This document shows positions 4,441-18,502 of a DNA stretch of 64,000 bases, in pieces. A program made the translations under genes and the position numbers. Each line of letters opens with the position of its first letter. The stretch's first letter is position 1. The notes below the pieces were generated by a model that saw only the letters and a program-made list of their open reading frames with translations, searched no databases and was not told where the DNA came from. This stretch comes from Flavipsychrobacter stenotrophus (lineage in GTDB: Bacteria; Bacteroidota; Bacteroidia; Chitinophagales; Chitinophagaceae): assembly GCF_002954265.1 (NCBI RefSeq), contig NZ_PPSL01000004.1, forward strand, positions 248,001-312,000. The letters run 5' to 3'.

Positions 4441-5631
4441 CTACAAACTCTCCAAAAACTTAATCAACAACTCCTTATCCCCACTCTGTAAAACCTTGTA
4501 ACTATCCTTGCTTTGCAGCGCCTCACCACCATGCAACAATATGGCTGCTTCTATGCTTCTTGCCCTGCCATCGTGCAACAAATAATAACTTCCTCCCTGC
4601 GATTGCTTTGACAGCCCAAGCCCCCACAATGCAGGCGTGCGCCACTCTGCTGGTTTCGCATTGCCTTCGGTATAACCATCATTCAATCCGTCCCCCATAT
4701 CATGCAGCAATAGATCGGTATAAGGATAAAAGGTAACATTGCTCAATGCTGTTATTGTAGAATATGCGGTCTTCAATATAGGTACATGGCACTTGCCGCA
4801 ATTGATCTGCATAAACAACTCCTTGCCCTTCACAACATCCTTGTCCGTAGCATTTCTTTGCACAGGCGCCTTTAATGTCTTCAGGTAAAACACCACATCC
4901 AGTAGTGTCTGGTTAGTTACCTCTGGGTCAATTTCCGCGCCGCTATAAGTATCATAAGGCTCGTAGCTCGATGTTATACCCATGTCCTGATTATACGCCC
5001 CTGCTGTTTGTTGCAGCAGATCATATGCGCCCGCCTTTTTCCCAAAGCGACCTATATGTCTTCCTCCATTTTTAATACTCCCTTCTCTTGGCGTCAGGTA
5101 AGGCTTCAGTGGTGTCCAGTTGACCACACCACTTATGCCATCACCGTCAGCATCATTGGGGTCAGCCATGGCTATTATGTCCGCATCGCTTACCGCATCA
5201 AGAAAGCCCATGCCGGTATTGGCTGGGGGAGTAAACTTTGCGAATGCAGCACCAGTAGGTACCTGCTCAGGTTCATGTCCGGGTATTGCTCTGTCTTGTA
5301 GTTGTGGCGCACCCTGTTGCAGGAAATGATTGCCGGTGCTGTCTGTTTGCCCGAACCGGGTGAGGGTAGTGAAGGGGTGCCCCTTGCCGTCACCTGCATG
5401 ACAACTACCGCAAGATGTGGCAACAAACAAGGGGCCAAGTCCTGTTTCTTTAGTAAAGATCTCGCCATTAAAAGCTGCATCACCTCTCAGGAACTGTTGC
5501 TTCTGTGCTGCCGTCAATCCCGCTACTGGCCCATCAAGCGTCTGGTCTTCACCAGGACCGGCTGGCTCCATTTTCTGGCACGACATCGCCAGCACAAACA
5601 CGCTTACACTAAATATTATTTGCCACTTCAT
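4441..5631 (-). CDS. Di-haem c-type oxidoreductase (DUF1111-like), lipoprotein
   Basis: 396 residues. Two c-type haem motifs are visible: C74-G-S-C77-H78 near the N-terminus and CGKCH around residue 277. The order and the motifs GFLDAVSDADI, GRFGKKAG and TPALWGLG fit the DUF1111 / di-haem oxidoreductase family, related to MauG and bacterial cytochrome c peroxidases. The N-terminus ends in LAMSCQK, a lipobox. It should act in the periplasm. In other bacteria this family is often found with imelysin-type iron-uptake proteins; none is present here, but a porin and a Rieske protein follow. It is the first gene of the unit and its promoter carries a perfect palindrome. Confidence 0.85.
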   Translation of the reverse strand: MKWQIIFSVSVFVLAMSCQKMEPAGPGEDQTLDGPVAGLTAAQKQQFLRGDAAFNGEIFTKETGLGPLFVATSCGSCHAGDGKGHPFTTLTRFGQTDSTGNHFLQQGAPQLQDRAIPGHEPEQVPTGAAFAKFTPPANTGMGFLDAVSDADIIAMADPNDADGDGISGVVNWTPLKPYLTPREGSIKNGGRHIGRFGKKAGAYDLLQQTAGAYNQDMGITSSYEPYDTYSGAEIDPEVTNQTLLDVVFYLKTLKAPVQRNATDKDVVKGKELFMQINCGKCHVPILKTAYSTITALSNVTFYPYTDLLLHDMGDGLNDGYTEGNAKPAEWRTPALWGLGLSKQSQGGSYYLLHDGRARSIEAAILLHGGEALQSKDSYKVLQSGDKELLIKFLESL

Positions 5632-8607: not shown

Positions 8608-9987
8608 CTACTTTACACTTTCTACCGCGCTAAGCACATGAGCTCCCGCAAACTCCACACACTTATCGGGGTTGGCGGTGGCGTGTTTGTATACGAGGTT
8701 GCGGATAAAGTCATTGTCTTGCAGGGGCTCCAGGTGGCTCTTTAAAATTTCAAGTGTTTCCATCTGTTGCTTTTTGTCGGAGAGGTAGCCCATGCCCACA
8801 AAATTGCCTTCCATTATCAGTATGCAGCTATGTTCATTTTCCTCAATGCCTTTATCTATGTAGGCAAAAGTGGGCAGCAGTTTACGCATCCACTCCATGG
8901 CTTCTTCTACGCGGGCATTGTATTCATCGGCATCGGCATGCATGCTGCACTCACAATCGGGAGAGATATTGCAGAGACGGTTACAGAGGTTGAATTCGCT
9001 GATCAGTTCGCGCAGGCGCATTTGCCCCTCTACTGCCGTATTAAATGTATAGAGCGGTTTGGCGGCCTGTCGGTTCTTTTCAATGGCCAGTCGCATAAAC
9101 CCGTTGCGGTCTTCATAAGAGAAGAGTCCAAACTGCGGCAGGTAACCTCTCTGACTGCGGTTGTGTATGGGCCACAACCTGCGGATCTCGGTGCTTTCCA
9201 ATATGTGTGCCATCAACTCGGTAGCGCATTGTTTGTAGCTGATACGGGCGGTTTCGCGCAGAAAATCCTGCTTCTGGCGGTTGACCTTATTATTGGAGAA
9301 GTGGCTTTTTACCCGCTTACGCAAGTTGATGGCCTTACCCACATAGATCACTTTACCCTCGGCATTGTAGAAATAGTAAACACCCGGTGTGCCCGGTAGC
9401 TGTGCTATCTGCTCTACAGGCAGGTGGGGTGGTATATAAGATTCGGCTGTGTTGCCTTTTAGTGCTGCAGCTATTGCGCCATTGGTATCTCGGGCAACTA
9501 TCATAGCCAGCAGATCGGCAGTGGCCAGGGCATCGCCACCTGCGCGGTGGCGGGCACCATGGTGGATACCCAGTTGTTGGGTCAGTTTACCAAGGCTATA
9601 GCCGTTTAACCCCGGTATTACTTTACGCGCCAGGCGCACGGTGCAGAGCTTCTTTTCATCGATCTCATAACCTGCAGCATCGAGGTGGTATTTTACAAAA
9701 GAGTAATCGAAATTAACATTGTGGGCTACAAATATCTTGTCCTGCAGCAGTTCATACACCTGTCCGGCTATCTCTTCAAACGATGGCGCATTGGCTACCA
9801 TGTTGTTATCTATACCAGTTAGCCGCTCTATAAAGTAGGGGATAGGCACATGCGGATTGACCAGGCTTTCATAAAAATTAAGCACTTTTTCACCATCGTG
9901 TATGACAATGGCGATCTCCGTAATGCCATTGGCTGCGGCAAAACTTCCTGTTGTTTCAATATCTACTACGGCATAAAGCATCTTCAC
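8608..9987 (-). CDS. DEDDh exonuclease fused to GIY-YIG endonuclease domain
   Basis: 459 residues. Residues 1-170 are a DnaQ-like 3'-5' exonuclease: VVDIETTG (Exo I), FVAHNVNFDYSF (Exo II) and HRAGGDALAT (Exo IIIepsilon). Residues 195-280 are a UvrC/Cho-type GIY-YIG nuclease: PGVYYFYNAEGKVIYVGKA with K-x-RV-x-SHF following. The remaining C-terminus has a cysteine group (CNRLCNISPDCECSMH) but no recognised domain. This fusion is widespread in bacteria and is probably involved in DNA repair in the cytoplasm. It is a single gene. Confidence 0.9.
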   Translation of the reverse strand: MKMLYAVVDIETTGSFAAANGITEIAIVIHDGEKVLNFYESLVNPHVPIPYFIERLTGIDNNMVANAPSFEEIAGQVYELLQDKIFVAHNVNFDYSFVKYHLDAAGYEIDEKKLCTVRLARKVIPGLNGYSLGKLTQQLGIHHGARHRAGGDALATADLLAMIVARDTNGAIAAALKGNTAESYIPPHLPVEQIAQLPGTPGVYYFYNAEGKVIYVGKAINLRKRVKSHFSNNKVNRQKQDFLRETARISYKQCATELMAHILESTEIRRLWPIHNRSQRGYLPQFGLFSYEDRNGFMRLAIEKNRQAAKPLYTFNTAVEGQMRLRELISEFNLCNRLCNISPDCECSMHADADEYNARVEEAMEWMRKLLPTFAYIDKGIEENEHSCILIMEGNFVGMGYLSDKKQQMETLEILKSHLEPLQDNDFIRNLVYKHATANPDKCVEFAGAHVLSAVESVK

Positions 9988-12667: not shown

Positions 12668-12827
12668 GGAGGTATTACCGTGGTAAACGAGTTACACATT
12701 TATACGATAATACCGGGTGTTGTTTGCAGTTTTCATGTTGATGGAGGTTTATGGTATGGGGTTATAAATCTCACAAAGGTGGGGCCGCTTTTTGATGTGC
12801 GCAAATTGAATTTACATGGTGGGACGG

Positions 12828-12864
12828 AAAGTGTACCATGATGGTACGAAAAGTGTACCATCAT
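12828..12864. repeat. AAAGTGTACCAT direct repeat with internal palindrome
   Basis: AAAGTGTACCAT occurs twice (12,828 and 12,850), and the first copy extends into the palindrome GTACCAT-G-ATGGTAC. It is operator-like but has no gene to serve on the right, because the transposon begins 26 bases later. Confidence 0.5.
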
Positions 12865-12881
12865 AAAAAAAAGTTGTGTGG

Positions 12882-12889
12882 ATAACCCG
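12882..12889. repeat. Target-site duplication, left copy
   Basis: ATAACCCG, directly outside the left inverted repeat. The same 8 bases follow the right inverted repeat at 18,333-18,340. Confidence 0.9.
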
Positions 12890-12916
12890 GGCGCTAACAT
12901 ACCTCTTTACACCAAA
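12890..12916. repeat. Left terminal inverted repeat of the IS1595-type element
   Basis: Begins GGCGCTAACATACC and ends TTTACACCAAA. It matches the reverse complement of 18,306-18,332 at 25 of 27 positions. Confidence 0.9.
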
Positions 12917-12963
12917 TAAATGAATCTATTTAGTATTTATATATTATATTTATACTCGTAAGA

Positions 12964-13194
12964 TTAAAAGTTTAAAAGTTCCGATAAACTTATTCCTAAC
13001 TCACTGCTTATCTTCCTTAGCAATAACACCGAAGGGTTTGTATTGCCCGCTTCAATCCTATTCATATTTGATTTATCTAAATCGCAGATATACCCTAAAT
13101 CAACTTGCTTTATACCTTTCTCCTTACGTATTGTTTTAATACGCTGACCCAGTTGTTTTAAATAAATCTCATCTTCTTTTACCCGCTTATTCAT
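12964..13194 (-). CDS. XRE-type HTH regulator in the transposon
   Basis: 76 residues, almost entirely a lambda-repressor-like HTH: LGQRIKTIRKEKGIKQVDLGYICDLDKSNMNRIEAGNTNPSVLLLRKISSELGISLSELL. The recognition helix region is LDKSNMNRIE. It is the leftmost gene of the element, divergent from the LamG gene, with about 80 bases between them, so it may control that promoter and its own. Start: ATG at 13,194; the frame opens further to a TTG at 13,224. It is likely a cytoplasmic DNA-binding regulator of element genes; targets are unknown. Confidence 0.8.
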   Translation of the reverse strand: MNKRVKEDEIYLKQLGQRIKTIRKEKGIKQVDLGYICDLDKSNMNRIEAGNTNPSVLLLRKISSELGISLSELLNF

Positions 13195-13276
13195 TCCGAG
13201 CAAATTCAAAAAAATTACACTCAATAAGTTATCAATATTGACAACGTTTTTTTACATTAGCCGCAAATCATACAAC

Positions 13277-14318
13277 ATGAAAAAAATTGTTTGTCTTGCT
13301 GCTTTATTACTCCCTTTCCTCCTTTTCAAACGCTCAAATAGGTAGTACTTATCATAGCACATATTTTGACGGAACAACAGGCATACGGTTAGTTACTAAC
13401 TACATGACTTTTACAAGCAATGCTATACCGCAACTAACTATTGAAGTGTGGCTAAAACGAGATACCGCTATTAGTAGTTACGGTGGTGGCCGTACGGAAA
13501 CAATTGCTCAATTTCCTAAGTTCGGTGGCCCTGCACAAGATGTACTAAACATATCATTAATAGACGATAGTGTGGTTGCTACATACGGTCAAAACGTTAA
13601 GGTATCATGCTTATATCCTGCTGATACGGAATGGCATCACATAGCATTTGTAAGCGATACGGTTACACACATATTATCTTTCGTTCCGACAATATTTGAT
13701 ACGGCATTTCTTTATTTAGACGGTGTAAAAATGTCACATGGTGTAGGCAATAGAGCTCCTTTAATGGGTGCTGGAGCGGGCAGTACGATTAATATAGGGT
13801 ATTCTCATTTTTCAAGTGGCTCTGACGGAAATTATTATAGCGGCAACCTAACAATGTTAGCGGTTTATGATACTGCTTTGTATGCTAATAATTTCACGCC
13901 TTCATGTGTATTTGATACGGTTAGATTTTTCAGGAATGACAGTTTATTAATGCCGTGTGACTATATGGCTCCGTTAAATGGTAATGATACGGGGTATTAC
14001 AGTTTGAATCAGGTAAAGGTTAATAATGCGGTTGTTAGTGAATTAAGTTCTCCCTGTGATACGGTTGTAACAACTACGTCAATAGGTACTATTCAAAAGG
14101 ACTTGATAAGCATATACCCTAATCCTGGTCACGGTACAATGTCTATTAGTAGTGATTTGCTGCTTGAAAAGATTGAGGTAATAAACTTGTTAGGGCAAAC
14201 GGTATTGAGCGAGAAAACAACGGGAAATACTATGCAAATAGATTTATCAGCATTGCAAAATGGAATTTATTTGTTGCGAGTTAATGAGGGTATTATTTAT
14301 AAAATCATAAAGGATTAA
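13277..14318 (+). CDS. LamG-fold T9SS-secreted protein with a frameshift in the start region
   Basis: The long frame starts at a TTG (13,287) and encodes about 343 residues: a concanavalin/LamG-like domain (LTIEVWLKRD, WHHIAFVSD, FLYLDGVKM, INIGYSHFSSG, YYSGNLTMLAVYDTALY) and a type A sorting domain (SIYPNPGHG ... NGIYLLRVNEGIIYKIIKD). The natural start appears to be ATG at 13,277, followed by seven A. As written, that ATG runs out of frame and stops at a TAG after about 22 codons. With six A it would give a perfect signal peptide, MKKLFVLLLYYSLSSFSNAQ, joined to the long frame. So the gene is either phase-variable, slippage-dependent, recently inactivated, or carries a one-base sequencing error. 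A secreted adhesin or glycan-binding role is inferred. Confidence 0.75.
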
Positions 14319-14351
14319 GGCATTTTCAAATCACAATATAAAATCAACAAA

Positions 14352-14483
14352 ATGGCTACGTATCAATGTCAAAAATGCGGCACGAAATCAAGCAACATTT
14401 CAACAAGTATTAATTGCCCTAAAGGTGGCTCACACATTTGGAGCAACCTCGGAAGATTTATTAAACAAGTGTTTAACTGGTAA
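14352..14483 (+). CDS. Small zinc-ribbon-like protein
   Basis: 43 residues. CQKC near the start and C...H later (C6, C9, C22, H28 approximately) could bind one zinc ion, as in small zinc ribbons. The rest is basic and aromatic (GRFIKQVFNW). No family name can be given. It lies 33 bases after the LamG gene on the same strand and before a strong terminator, so it is probably the second gene of that unit. The ATG follows an A-rich leader (AAATCAACAAA). Confidence 0.65.
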   Translation: MATYQCQKCGTKSSNISTSINCPKGGSHIWSNLGRFIKQVFNW

Positions 14484-14487
14484 GGCA

Positions 14488-14517
14488 AAAGAAGTAGCGA
14501 TTAATCGCTACTTCTTT
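14488..14517 (+). terminator. Terminator after the LamG / zinc-ribbon unit
   Basis: A perfect palindrome of 30 bases (AAAGAAGTAGCGATT and its complement) followed by ATTTAT. Confidence 0.75.
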
Positions 14518-14577
14518 ATTTATAGTAAATACTTTGTGCTATAAAAAACAAAATGGATATATGATGTTATAATAGGC

Positions 14578-14958
14578 ATGAAAAAGATTAAATGTTGGAT
14601 ACAGAAATTATTACTTTATTTGCTTAAAAAATTAAATATGCCGAAACCTTTTGCCGAATTTAAAAGGCGCAATATGCTTGACGTTTATCTTTTCATAGAA
14701 AAATCCTTGGTTTTTGGAGAGTTGGGATTTGAATTATACAACATACCTCATTTGTATGGTGAAAATATGACGTTCGTAACTGATAAAACAAACGATTATG
14801 GAACATTACAATACACAAATACAAAAACGGACGCTAAAGCATCAATTAACATAGACAAGGATTACAATGTATTTATTGAAGGTGTTGATAACGACACTAA
14901 AAATCGTATGGAACAATTCGTAACACAGTATTTACAGCAGGCAAAATTCCTACCTTAA
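14578..14958 (+). CDS. Transposon passenger protein, unknown (126 aa)
   Basis: 126 residues, unrecognised. The first 20 residues are basic and hydrophobic (MKKIKCWIQKLLLYLLKK), possibly an amphipathic or membrane-associated helix. The remainder is a mixed alpha/beta globular sequence with YGTLQYTNTKTDAKASINIDKD in the middle. The leader TTATAATAGGCATG closely resembles that of the passenger gene at 16,864. The ATG is clear and codon use is as AT-rich as the rest of the element. Function unknown. Confidence 0.65.
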   Translation: MKKIKCWIQKLLLYLLKKLNMPKPFAEFKRRNMLDVYLFIEKSLVFGELGFELYNIPHLYGENMTFVTDKTNDYGTLQYTNTKTDAKASINIDKDYNVFIEGVDNDTKNRMEQFVTQYLQQAKFLP

Positions 14959-15010
14959 TAATTGCGGATAAGTATTTTTAATATTCTTTGTTTTGGTGTA
15001 AAATTCTCCT

Positions 15011-15018
15011 TATCTTTG
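15011..15018 (+). promoter_or_regulatory. -7-like box before the transposase gene
   Basis: TATCTTTG fits TAnnTTTG, with TTTG at 14,987-14,990 exactly 20 bases upstream. It lies only 4 bases before the ATG, so a transcript from it would be leaderless or start inside the gene. Between the two boxes TTTGGTGTAAA (14,992-15,002) repeats the inner part of the terminal repeats. Confidence 0.4.
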
Positions 15019-15022
15019 GTTC

Positions 15023-16024
15023 ATGTTTGAACTGAAACCTTTTAAGAGCATTTTAGACCTTCTCAAAGCATTTCCGACTGAACAAGTTTGTATTGCTCAC
15101 CTTGAAACATTGCGCTGGAACGGCAATGTTATATCCCCGTTTGACCCTAATTCTAAAGTCTATAAGTGCGCTGGCATTAAATACAAATGCAAGAATACTG
15201 GCAAATATTTCAACGTCCTTACAGGTACTATATTTGAAAATACTAAAATCCCTTTGCAGACTTGGTTTCTCGCAATCTATCTTTTTACTACACACAAAAA
15301 AGGTATCAGTAGCTACATTATGGCTACTGAATTAAATATTACTCAAAAATCAAGTTGGTTCCTCTTATCCCGCATACGCTATGCAATGGAACACGAAAAC
15401 TTTTTAAACAACTTTGACGGCACTATTGAAGTTGATGAAACCTATGTAGGTGGCAAAAATAAGAATAGGCATGACGATAAGAAGAAAGAATATTCACAAG
15501 GTGGAAAGCAAATGCAGCCTGTATTTGGTATGTTTAAAGAGGAAGTTTCAGAAGTAATTTACAGACCGAATAAAAAGAATAACGAATTAGCAGTTAGAGA
15601 GAAAGTTATTCATCAACATGCAGTAGTAAGGACGGAAGTGGTAGATAATGTTCAGAGTAAAACACTATTGCCTATGATCGCGGAGAAAGTAGAATTTGGT
15701 TCTACTATTGTTTCAGATGAGTATCATGTGTATAAGAATTTAAAGAACGCATACTATCACGAGGTTGTACAGCATAGATTGAAGAACTACGTAAATTGGG
15801 ATGGATATACAACTAACAGGTTAGAGGGCTATTGGAATATCTTAAAGAAGACGTGGGGTACTACTTACATGGGTCGTGTAACAGTAAAGCATTTACATAG
15901 GTATTGCAGGGAAACGGAGTACAGATTTAATACAAGGCATTTAAACACTTCGGACACATTTAATCTGTTGTTGACAGGTTGCGAAAAGCGTTTAAGATAC
16001 GTAGATTTGAAAAACAACAAATAA
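15023..16024 (+). CDS. IS1595-family (ISXO2-like) DDE transposase
   Basis: 333 residues, normal length. N-terminal: a reduced zinc-ribbon-like part (KVYKCAGIKYKCKNTGKYFNV) and the family pattern TGTIFENTKIPLQTWFLAIY. Catalytic domain: first D138 in EVDETYVGGK, second D232 in SDEYHVYK and E268 in TNRLEGYWNILKK. It catalyses movement of the element by cutting at the GG-starting inverted repeats. The product looks intact. It lies in the middle of the element rather than at one end, with passenger genes on both sides. Confidence 0.95.
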   Translation: MFELKPFKSILDLLKAFPTEQVCIAHLETLRWNGNVISPFDPNSKVYKCAGIKYKCKNTGKYFNVLTGTIFENTKIPLQTWFLAIYLFTTHKKGISSYIMATELNITQKSSWFLLSRIRYAMEHENFLNNFDGTIEVDETYVGGKNKNRHDDKKKEYSQGGKQMQPVFGMFKEEVSEVIYRPNKKNNELAVREKVIHQHAVVRTEVVDNVQSKTLLPMIAEKVEFGSTIVSDEYHVYKNLKNAYYHEVVQHRLKNYVNWDGYTTNRLEGYWNILKKTWGTTYMGRVTVKHLHRYCRETEYRFNTRHLNTSDTFNLLLTGCEKRLRYVDLKNNK

Positions 16025-16051
16025 CTCATAAACTTTTATTGCTTTCACGAT

Positions 16052-16369
16052 ATGAATAGAGGTCGCTTTCAAGCACAAGCAAAAAATATGCCTGTAAAAT
16101 CTTCGGTTTGGACAACGGTAGATACAATATATAAACAGACAGGGCATAATCACATTGATAATGTTGTAGGGTCATTAACAAGAGGGGAATATGAGGAACG
16201 AAATTTAGCGATTCAGCAAGCAAGAGAGTTTGTTGATAATGCACCTGCAGAAGGCGTATTTTCTTTTATAAAGAAATCGTTTAGAAATTCTCCGCAACAT
16301 CGCTCGGTACGCTTTGATGTAGATATTCTTGAAGGAGCTGCATTTGTAACATTAATAGAAGAGGAATAA
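16052..16369 (+). CDS. Transposon passenger protein, unknown (105 aa)
   Basis: 105 residues with no export signal. It begins MNRGRFQAQAKN and ends RFDVDILEGAAFV; I have an impression of small Bacteroidota proteins with the same beginning and end, but no named family. The middle is helical and charged (LTRGEYEERNLAIQQAREFVDNAP). It starts 27 bases after the transposase stop and is followed by the next gene after 4 bases, so 16,052-16,811 reads as an operon with the transposase. Confidence 0.65.
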   Translation: MNRGRFQAQAKNMPVKSSVWTTVDTIYKQTGHNHIDNVVGSLTRGEYEERNLAIQQAREFVDNAPAEGVFSFIKKSFRNSPQHRSVRFDVDILEGAAFVTLIEEE

Positions 16370-16373
16370 GAAC

Positions 16374-16811
16374 ATGGACGATCGTAAAATATTATATAAA
16401 GACTTTTTAAACAACAAGGATGTCTATAACCTGAATGTAGGTTATTGGAGAAGGAAACTTGAAAAGTCTTTGGAGGAGAAAATCTCTTTTGATAATAAAA
16501 ATCAAATAATTACTAACAAGAATAAACACGGCAAAAATTTCTATGATGGTAATCCTATTTTCAGTTATATAAATATTACTAAAGGAAAGGCAATCCGAAT
16601 CATTCAAGAAAATCCTGATGATATACAACACTATTCAGACATTAAATTAATTGAAGGATGGTTTGATAATATACTCTTAGACATTGAAGTTTTAGAGTTG
16701 GTTATCTCTCTCTATATGACACAAGATACGGTTCAAAAGTGTATAAATATGGTGGGTGCGTGGTTAGCAGGAGACCTGAATGATAATAACATTGACAGGT
16801 ATATTGAATAG
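16374..16811 (+). CDS. Transposon passenger protein, unknown (145 aa)
   Basis: 145 residues, cytoplasmic, highly charged and helical, with no recognised motif. It includes KLEKSLEEKISFDNKNQI and later helices around DNILLDIEVLELVISLYMTQDTVQ. The ATG follows the preceding stop by a few bases, implying cotranscription. Codon use is strongly AT-rich. I cannot propose a function. Confidence 0.6.
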   Translation: MDDRKILYKDFLNNKDVYNLNVGYWRRKLEKSLEEKISFDNKNQIITNKNKHGKNFYDGNPIFSYINITKGKAIRIIQENPDDIQHYSDIKLIEGWFDNILLDIEVLELVISLYMTQDTVQKCINMVGAWLAGDLNDNNIDRYIE

Positions 16812-16863
16812 AAATTAGAGTATAACTAAACAACTTGTAAGCAGCTTCATGCTATAATAAGGC

Positions 16864-17211
16864 ATGAGGAGATTATTATTTAGAGTTCTTTTATTTTTTA
16901 AACTTATAAAGGTGAGATACAGTTTATTTAGAAATAATAATGGTGAGTGGACATACTTTACTTACACAGAAATTAACAGAAATATTGGTATCGGTGATGC
17001 TGTAAACGTAATATTTGAAGGTGAGGAACGACAGTATATTGTGGCATTTAGATTGCGGTTATCTAATAATGATAGTCCGCTACTTCTTGTGGAAGAAAAT
17101 ATAAATGTTGCACCCCGAATAGTTGAAGATAATGCAGTGGATGTGGGTAAAATTAGTTTTGCAGTAAAAGTTAGAAATTGGTTTAATAATCTATCGTCAA
17201 AAAAGAAATAA
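16864..17211 (+). CDS. Transposon passenger protein, unknown (115 aa)
   Basis: 115 residues. The N-terminus MRRLLFRVLLFFKLIKVRYSL is hydrophobic and basic. The middle is beta-rich (DAVNVIFEGEERQYIVAFRLRLSN) and the C-terminus is basic (VRNWFNNLSSKKK). The leader CTATAATAAGGCATG is similar to the one at 14,578, suggesting related expression signals. The stop TAA overlaps the next ATG by one base (TAATG), so the two are translationally coupled. Confidence 0.6.
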   Translation: MRRLLFRVLLFFKLIKVRYSLFRNNNGEWTYFTYTEINRNIGIGDAVNVIFEGEERQYIVAFRLRLSNNDSPLLLVEENINVAPRIVEDNAVDVGKISFAVKVRNWFNNLSSKKK

Positions 17212-17567
17212 TGCACAACATAAAGCGAAATAAAAAGGTATTTGATTATCTGGTACAACAAGTAAAAAGATTGAACTGGAATATGGACATAACAGACATA
17301 TTCAGTCAATTTATTTTTTCAAATTTATCTGTTACTGATAGTAAGGAAGTTTTAAATTTAGTCGGAGACGGTATTAATTCAACTGTATTAGATAATGATA
17401 CTTTACTTATAGAGGTTGTAAAAATGATTGGTCTAATGGAAGTATGTGCAACGGAAGATGAATTAAGGCTGCTATTGAAAAGACGTAATGAGATAAAGTA
17501 CGGCAGTGATTTAACGGACTTTGATAAAATATTAAAGGCTATAATGACAGTGCCGAATAAGGAATGA
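17211..17567 (+). CDS. Transposon passenger protein, unknown (118 aa)
   Basis: 118 residues, predicted all-helical and soluble (VFDYLVQQVKRLNWNMDITDIF, LIEVVKMIGLMEVCATEDELRLLLKRRNEI). It overlaps the preceding gene by one base, so the pair probably forms one unit and the two proteins may act together. No family recognised. Confidence 0.6.
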   Translation: MHNIKRNKKVFDYLVQQVKRLNWNMDITDIFSQFIFSNLSVTDSKEVLNLVGDGINSTVLDNDTLLIEVVKMIGLMEVCATEDELRLLLKRRNEIKYGSDLTDFDKILKAIMTVPNKE

Positions 17568-17664
17568 TAGGTAAATCTGAGAAGTTATGCACTTTTTACG
17601 CACATTTTATTATTATTGGAATAAAATATGTTATGGATGCGTAATTTTGAGAAAATAATATATT

Positions 17665-18018
17665 ATGTCATTATCATTTAGAGGAGGTGTACTCATTCAA
17701 CACGATGCAGATAACTATCTGGCAGTAGGTTACGATTACTTAGAAGAATACAATCATTTTGTAATAGAATATTCGTTGCATAATAAGAAGTTTTTTCAGC
17801 AGGAAGTAGAATATAACTATTTATGCATAAAGAAACAAGCAAACGGTGAATGGAAAATCGGTTCTGTAATTAATGATTGTTTCTACAAAACAAATGTAGA
17901 AAGTCTAAAGGAATTAGAAAAGTATATTGTTTTAGAACATTGTCGTTTTGGACGAGTTAATGCTGGTAATAAAGCAATGTTTCACAACTATATGAAAGAT
18001 TTCAGGAAAATAGCATAA
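17665..18018 (+). CDS. Transposon passenger protein, unknown (117 aa)
   Basis: 117 residues, predicted soluble and beta-rich (GGVLIQHDADNYLAVGYDYLEEY, FVIEYSLHNKKFFQQEVEYNY), ending in a helix (AMFHNYMKDFRKIA). An approximately 97-base AT-rich gap separates it from the previous gene, so it may have its own promoter. No family recognised. Confidence 0.6.
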   Translation: MSLSFRGGVLIQHDADNYLAVGYDYLEEYNHFVIEYSLHNKKFFQQEVEYNYLCIKKQANGEWKIGSVINDCFYKTNVESLKELEKYIVLEHCRFGRVNAGNKAMFHNYMKDFRKIA

Positions 18019-18095
18019 TAGCTTTCTGAAAAGGTATTTTTGAAATAATACAACTTTCTATTTATCGTATATATAATAATTAAAATATTTTATAT

Positions 18096-18272
18096 ATGGT
18101 AAATGACATCTGCTTTATTGCAACAATTAATGCCTTAATTCAACAAGGGTTTGAATTATCAAATGATAATGTACTGAATAAGTACAATGAAATAAAAGAG
18201 GCTTATAACACACTTCTTAAGAAAAAAAGTGGTGGTCGCCCGAACACTAAAAAGGTTCAGAAAGGGATTTAA
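18096..18272 (+). CDS. Small basic-tailed protein at the transposon right end (58 aa)
   Basis: 58 residues. An N-terminal helical part (DICFIATINALIQQGFELSNDNVLNKYNEIKEAYNTL, interrupted here only for description) is followed by a basic tail KKKSGGRPNTKKVQKG that contains an AT-hook-like GRP core. It could bind nucleic acid. The stop lies inside the start of the terminator palindrome at 18,271-18,308, directly before the right inverted repeat, so this is the last gene of the element. Confidence 0.55.
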   Translation: MVNDICFIATINALIQQGFELSNDNVLNKYNEIKEAYNTLLKKKSGGRPNTKKVQKGI

Positions 18273-18308
18273 AAAAATGCACCATTGATATCAATGGTGC
18301 ATTTTTTT
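18271..18308. terminator. Perfect bidirectional terminator at the transposon right end
   Basis: A 38-base perfect palindrome: A tract, TGCACCATTGATATCAATGG, GCA and T tract. It probably isolates the element genes from host transcription on the right, and its last bases overlap the inner end of the right inverted repeat. Confidence 0.85.
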
Positions 18309-18332
18309 GGTGTAAAGTGGTATGTTAGTGCC
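18306..18332. repeat. Right terminal inverted repeat of the IS1595-type element
   Basis: Reverse complement begins GGCACTAACATACC and ends TTTACACCAAA; 25 of 27 bases match the left end. Confidence 0.9.
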
Positions 18333-18340
18333 ATAACCCG
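18333..18340. repeat. Target-site duplication, right copy
   Basis: ATAACCCG, identical to 12,882-12,889. With the following GGTTAT it completes the palindrome ATAACCCGGGTTAT, which was the uninterrupted target. Confidence 0.9.
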
Positions 18341-18502
18341 GGTTATGTGGTTAGTTTTGTGACGGGTATGTATGGTGTTTTTAGTGTTTTGAAAAAATGT
18401 GTGGGAGGGGATGAAAATGGGGTGTCATGCAAGGGTTTATATGGCAATCTGAAGATGGGAGACTTCTACAGTATAGCAGGGAAGACAGCGAAAAACAAAG
18501 AA

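Follow-up and report, generated by a model that had tools for sequence, protein, structure and literature searches.

Insertion sequence (IS) elements are commonly regarded as machines of a single gene, to which passengers may be added. Members of the IS1595 family possess a DDE transposase, terminal repeats and AT-preferring 8-base-pair (bp) target duplications (Siguier, Gagnevin and Chandler 2009, as cited in PMC12561309); elements of this family that carry passenger genes are already known (PMC3129680, PMC5704250), and circular intermediates have been reported for related elements (PMC5704250, PMC12561309). Here we describe an IS1595-family transposon located at positions 12890-18332 of a 64,000-nucleotide (nt) stretch of the Flavipsychrobacter stenotrophus genome (contig NZ_PPSL01000004.1, positions 248,001 to 312,000), hereafter called the window. 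Comparison of its sequence with those of its relatives allowed us to show the anatomy of the element, the linkage of a short C-terminal protein tail to IS1595 transposases, the exchange of the modules preceding this tail between sister elements, and the co-divergence of tail and transposase.

The transposon, its ends and its insertion site

The element is complete and 5,443 bp long. The features on which the argument depends are as follows (aa, amino acids).

12882..12889, no strand: left copy of the target duplication, ATAACCCG, read directly; the pair was also recovered by a blind scan
12890..12922, + strand: left inverted repeat, a 33-nt arm with a 27-nt core at 12890-12916
15023..16024, + strand: IS1595-family DDE transposase, 333 aa (PF12762, NF033547)
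17211..17567, + strand: tail accessory gene, 118 aa, with a short P63C-like module and a conserved C-terminal tail (tail codons 17511-17564)
18300..18332, - strand: right inverted repeat
18333..18340, no strand: right copy of the target duplication, ATAACCCG, from direct reading and the blind scan

The first-pass annotation had called a complete IS1595-family transposon, and this call was borne out by matches of the transposase to NF033547 (IS1595; E=2.1e-46, 158.5 bits against a cut-off of 75) and PF12762 (E=5.8e-27, 95 bits against a cut-off of 27), which place the protein inside the family. Residues D138, D232 and E268 are invariant in 24 transposase relatives, and their assignment as the catalytic triad rests on the IS1016 signature described in PMC12561309. 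An N-terminal zinc ribbon (PF12760) scored 14.4 bits, below the cut-off of 25.4. The AlphaFold2 model of the transposase was fairly confident (predicted local distance difference test, pLDDT, 84), and a Foldseek search with it returned weak matches to the Mos1 and Sleeping Beauty transposases and nothing stronger. The 27-bp ends and 8-bp duplications proposed earlier also held: positions 12890-12916 match the reverse complement of 18306-18332 at 25 of 27 bases, the repeats stretch to 33-nt arms with a 91% match, and a scan around the transposase for any inverted pair with identical 8-mers outside returned the 12890/18332 pair as its sole result. A chance pairing of ends was ruled out, since dozens of relatives have ends of this type, again with perfect 8-bp duplications. 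Ten open reading frames (ORFs) other than the transposase lie between the ends, as in a transporter IS. Judged from its sequence, this is a complete cargo transposon of the IS1595 family. Its movement is presumably the work of its own DDE transposase, which would act on the 27-33-bp ends and leave an 8-bp target duplication.

Relatives were collected as transposase loci, 80 of which came from one genome scan, with loci from a family search and from viral contigs in addition. Related ends with perfect 8-bp duplications marked the limits of approximately 68 complete elements, 2.0-5.9 kb in length. They come from Bacteroidota, among which Bacillota (Streptococcus, Defluviitaleaceae) are nested on the transposase tree, and some of the complete elements sit on viral contigs. 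The nearest are L009 (transposase identity 79%; 3,308 bp; target duplication TAATTTAA) and L201 (75%; 4,763 bp; TTAATTTA), the latter inside an 83-kb IMG/VR contig.

When the flanks of the window element were joined with one copy of ATAACCCG, they matched uninterrupted sequences of 157-214 nt that run across the junction, two of them elsewhere in this genome (81-82%) and others in two congeners (78-87%). On the evidence of these uninterrupted copies, the element has inserted at the palindrome ATAACCCGGGTTAT of a dispersed genus-specific repeat. This repeat covers positions 12815-12889 and 18341-18440, has tandem GTACCAT units around the insertion site, and is present in many genomic copies. 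An empty site had been proposed as a check on the insertion, and the outcome was mixed: the uninterrupted copies support an insertion, but they are paralogous and differ from ATAACCCG within the eight bases, and an exact orthologous empty site was not found in the same genome or in the congeners compared. Related genomes that keep the internal genes without the insertion were not found. Over 68 sites, the target duplications averaged 91% A/T, which makes ATAACCCG unusual.

A conserved tail tied to IS1595 transposases

When 281 ORFs from the elements were clustered, most elements proved to have another gene immediately after that of the transposase; its product ends in a tail of approximately 17 residues, LSDFNKKLKKGLNYNPKE (LTDFDKILKAIMTVPNKE in the window version). 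The per-position consensus is [LK]-[ST]-[DE]-F-[DN]-K-x-L-K-x-[GAL]-L-x-[YFWV]-[NP]-P-K. Of 89 transposase loci, at least 80 encode the tail: 76 loci of the analysed set together with L022, L066, L086 and L193. It is also present in viral-contig elements that had been left out of the tail profile. Among the loci with no clear tail, two are cut by contig ends, and in L051, L053, L071, L082, L083 and L199 the tail is weak or absent. The modules that precede the tail belong to unrelated classes, namely P63C, KilA-N and RhuM as recognized by Pfam and the short form of the window clade; further classes are BRO-N-like minis, assigned by eye, and forms of 46-59 aa that are little more than the tail itself. 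The tail gene usually overlaps the transposase stop codon, by 8 nt in 32 of 55 cases and by 4 nt in seven.

In the window, the tail gene starts at a TAATG following a 115-aa ORF, and its clade mates are found in L009, L201, L191, L192, L010, L013, L030, L031 and L042. The modelled protein is all-helical (pLDDT 82), the tail forming a separate helix at residues 103-112, and Foldseek returned no match in the PDB. No Pfam family was matched, PF10546 included, and the hhalign probability to P63C was 29-51%. The proteins of L191 and L192 matched a P63C profile built without tails (E=4e-7 and 2e-6, respectively), and the window protein is probably a shortened P63C. Between domain and tail, 14 of the 24 P63C-type tail proteins display a Q-x-x-[LIMF]-(x)-F motif (0.9 expected by shuffling), which recurs in some free P63C proteins of phages and which we take to resemble sliding-clamp ligands.

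As controls, 30 RhuM, 24 KilA-N and one P63C protein were drawn from Bacteroidota genomes, with 1.5 kb inspected on each side; the survey for P63C gave this single match, hence P63C proteins from phages and plasmids were added. The tail was absent from all 30 RhuM, 24 KilA-N and the one P63C relatives that lack an IS1595 transposase within 1.5 kb, and nine P63C proteins from phages or plasmids had neither a tail nor an annotated IS1595 neighbour. Near the C-terminus, free RhuM proteins have their own SDFDK segment, yet not the full tail. A Fisher test of 80/89 against 0/63 gave p=2e-33, a value that counts related sequences and serves as a guide only. That the tail is a general feature of RhuM, KilA-N or P63C proteins was ruled out by these tail-less unlinked relatives.

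Exchange of modules and the putative role of the tail

The modules are scattered over the transposase tree, with 14 changes for the 14 KilA-N rows, 13 for the 15 RhuM rows and 18 for the 24 P63C rows; the short form of the window is a single clade (99/96). L076, which carries RhuM, and L069, which carries KilA-N, could be aligned over the transposase (83%), 61 nt of the tail (84%) and 68 nt of the right end (85%), but not in between. This pattern was seen in sister elements, where the alignment covers transposase, tail (56-79 nt) and right end to the exclusion of the module, and the transposases of L025 (RhuM) and L032 (KilA-N) are very close, at a tree distance of 0.05. Homology blocks that border the module so exactly would also be consistent with tail DNA being kept as a landmark for homologous recombination in transposase and tail, with no role for the protein. 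We regard this as highly improbable: the tails are conserved as protein despite little DNA similarity, they are always in frame at or near the C-terminus, and the spacing of their F/L/L/P residues is fixed.

Across different modules, tail distance tracks transposase distance (rho 0.70), a value reached by none of 2000 shuffles within module (mean 0.007, sd 0.087), and at equal transposase distance the tails diverge about as little between different modules as between the same ones. Inside a single genus, Chryseobacterium or Flavobacterium, it is mostly the transposase clade that separates one tail from another, and the tails of Bacillota elements are of the type seen in the transposase clade to which these elements belong. 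The possibility of the tail being a pure host signal was hence ruled out. The same data bear on the proposal that the element is an ordinary transporter IS in which everything but the transposase is a passenger, the tail protein being selfish or of benefit to the host (for example as a defence or immunity regulator) and its tail binding a host factor. Tail similarity does partly follow the host, and P63C, KilA-N and RhuM proteins are also encoded by phages, plasmids and chromosomes. The cargo of relatives, moreover, includes restriction-modification genes (an Eco47II-type enzyme, C5 and N6 methylases, type I and IIG restriction-modification models) and SocA-like proteins of the antitoxin type, together with NYN, RadC and many small unknown proteins; no restriction-modification, SocA-like, NYN or RadC protein was recognized in the window element by the Pfam scan. 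This proposal nevertheless appears unlikely, given the split of tails by transposase clade, the tail-less state of unlinked relatives of the same modules, and the existence of tail-only proteins beside the transposase.

The interpretation that we favour, with some confidence, is that the tail docks on its cognate transposase and that the exchangeable module regulates or directs transposition. The functional core would then be larger than one gene and comprise the transposase and the accessory protein encoded at 17211-17567; the short helical C-terminal tail of 17-18 residues would dock on the transposase of the same element, and DNA binding or signal sensing, through which transposition is regulated or directed, would come from the interchangeable module in front of it (P63C, KilA-N, RhuM or the short P63C-like form). 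Several observations weigh against it. A distance of 1,186 nt separates the window's tail gene from the transposase before it, an exception among relatives, so the coupling by overlap has been lost; the window tail alone scores weakly (E=0.02) and was secured through intermediates; and host relatedness adds to tail similarity. Inspection, with no statistical test, also gave no sign of the modules choosing different targets, a point that counts against target selection but leaves regulation untouched. Regulation is favoured over targeting because the duplications show one common AT-rich preference.

Target selection proper would have the module bind particular DNA, such as that of a phage or plasmid, and the tail recruit the transposase there, as in Tn7-like elements. 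The modules are regulator families of DNA viruses and are often exchanged, and complete elements, the close relative L201 included, reside on viral contigs. Set against this are the AT-rich preference shared by the duplications, which is also that of an accessory-free IS1595 element of the IS1016 group (PMC12561309), the existence of tail-only elements, and the lack of an AAA+ regulator; we consider an adaptor of this kind less likely still than a tail protein that is mere cargo.

Small basic proteins that resemble a free tail were encountered beyond the group. The same genome contains five more complete cargo-bearing IS1595 elements (L186-L190; contigs C11, C14, C15 and C21) of 2.6-5.0 kb, with perfect 8-bp duplications and other end types, and four of the five encode a basic protein of 52-54 aa with an F-[EM]-x-x-M-K-like motif resembling the free tail. 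The distant IS1595 elements L227, L229 and L234 encode basic mini-proteins of a similar kind (41-53 aa). Overall, basic mini-proteins of 41-54 aa with an F-x-x-[LM]-K-like motif were found in 7 of 19 more distant IS1595 elements; their homology to the tail is suggestive only. A bolder extension of the docking interpretation, which we put forward tentatively, is a plug-in system in which phage-regulator domains are swapped onto a transposase-cognate tail, so that the transposon may sense or aim at incoming phage or plasmid DNA, with the mini-proteins as the ancestral tail-only form.

Remaining genes and comparison with known systems

The remaining features of the element are listed below.

12964..13224, - strand: XRE/Cro-type regulator, 86 aa (PF01381, E=3.8e-9); kept in L009 (62-64%) and L201
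13287..14318, + strand: ORF with LamG and type IX secretion system (T9SS) sorting domains (PF13385, PF18962), TTG start, cargo
14352..14483, + strand: zinc-ribbon-like protein, 43 aa, conserved in the clade (44% in L009 and L201), below Pfam cut-offs
14578..14958, + strand: 126-aa protein with an amphipathic start, N-terminus conserved in the clade
14991..15003, - strand: internal copy of the inner end motif (TTTTACACCAAAA on the - strand), just upstream of the transposase gene; kept in L009
16052..16369, + strand: cargo ORF, 105 aa, no family match and no relative among the element proteins compared
16374..16811, + strand: cargo ORF, 145 aa, with no function assigned by the family scan or by comparison with element proteins
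16864..17211, + strand: 115-aa ORF overlapping the tail gene by TAATG, with a very weak likeness to an 81-aa ORF before the L201 tail gene
17665..18018, + strand: cargo ORF, 117 aa
18096..18272, + strand: cargo ORF, 58 aa
18271..18308, no strand: perfect 38-nt palindrome with A/T runs, overlapping the right end

The first-pass annotation had counted about ten passengers. Ten ORFs are indeed present, but at least one of them, at 17211-17567, is the conserved accessory gene and not cargo. The window element, L009 and L201 have in common a left-end XRE gene, a zinc-ribbon protein of 43-45 aa, a protein of 126-136 aa, the transposase and a tail protein of 118-122 aa, while most of the remaining genes differ; since the XRE, zinc-ribbon and 126-aa genes recur in this closest trio, free cargo makes up no more than about half of the content. 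Beyond the transposase and tail gene, the window genes are best described as cargo or clade-specific helpers, mostly of no assignable function. The XRE regulator and zinc-ribbon-like ORF are present as first described, as are seven small proteins with no family assignment. Both domains of the proposed T9SS-secreted LamG protein were found, but the ORF has no in-frame ATG, and the gene is probably broken in frame at the signal peptide; a signal-peptide-like start lies out of the LamG frame at 13277-13340, with its ATG at 13277, and fits an indel or an assembly error. As anticipated, no resistance gene was recognized in the window element. Among its ten proteins scanned with Pfam, there was no relaxase (no oriT search was made), no TnsC-like AAA+ regulator and no TniQ/TnsD-type selector.

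The internal motif copy at 14991-15003 is a possible transposase binding site; a GTGTAAA/TTTACAC-like motif precedes the transposase gene in many elements with upstream cargo, an occurrence for which no chance estimate was made. The palindrome at 18271-18308 is a probable bidirectional terminator. In other elements, L023 encodes a 265-aa protein (8912-9706) between the transposase and a 66-aa tail ORF that by eye is proteasome-type hydrolase-like and has no Pfam match, and L201, the transposon in a viral contig, encodes a 125-aa protein (5214-5591) that by eye is retropepsin-like.

Should the tail prove to dock on the transposase, the core of a large and widespread IS1595 group would have two components, one of them exchangeable. 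The tail could then serve to find such transposons, would explain the occurrence of phage-regulator domains beside transposases, and would offer a testable route to the control of a compact DDE transposase; in the window, it sorts conserved transposon functions from real cargo.

Tn7-like elements use exchangeable target selectors, and a functional analogy is possible, with a variable adaptor serving a conserved transposase; unlike them, the window element has a single DDE transposase, no TnsC-like ATPase and no TniQ, and its adaptor role is putative. Free P63C, KilA-N and RhuM proteins are homologous to the modules, but lack the tail and do not lie beside an IS1595 transposase. With the IS1595 family the element shares the transposase family, DDE residues, terminal repeats and 8-bp duplications; however, simple members such as ISApl4 are of approximately 0.7 kb with one gene, whereas the clade compared here spans 2-6 kb and possesses a second core gene. 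MTnSag1 (tISSag10) and tISCpe8 are alike in having an IS1595 transposase, inverted repeats of approximately 25 bp, target duplications and passengers (PMC5704250), but they carry lincomycin resistance or mobilisation functions, and neither a resistance gene nor a relaxase was recognized in the window element. No report of either the tail or the module exchange was found in the open-access literature, where absence is no proof of novelty. IS1595 elements with passengers being known, our comparison points to the tail and its swapped modules as what is new.

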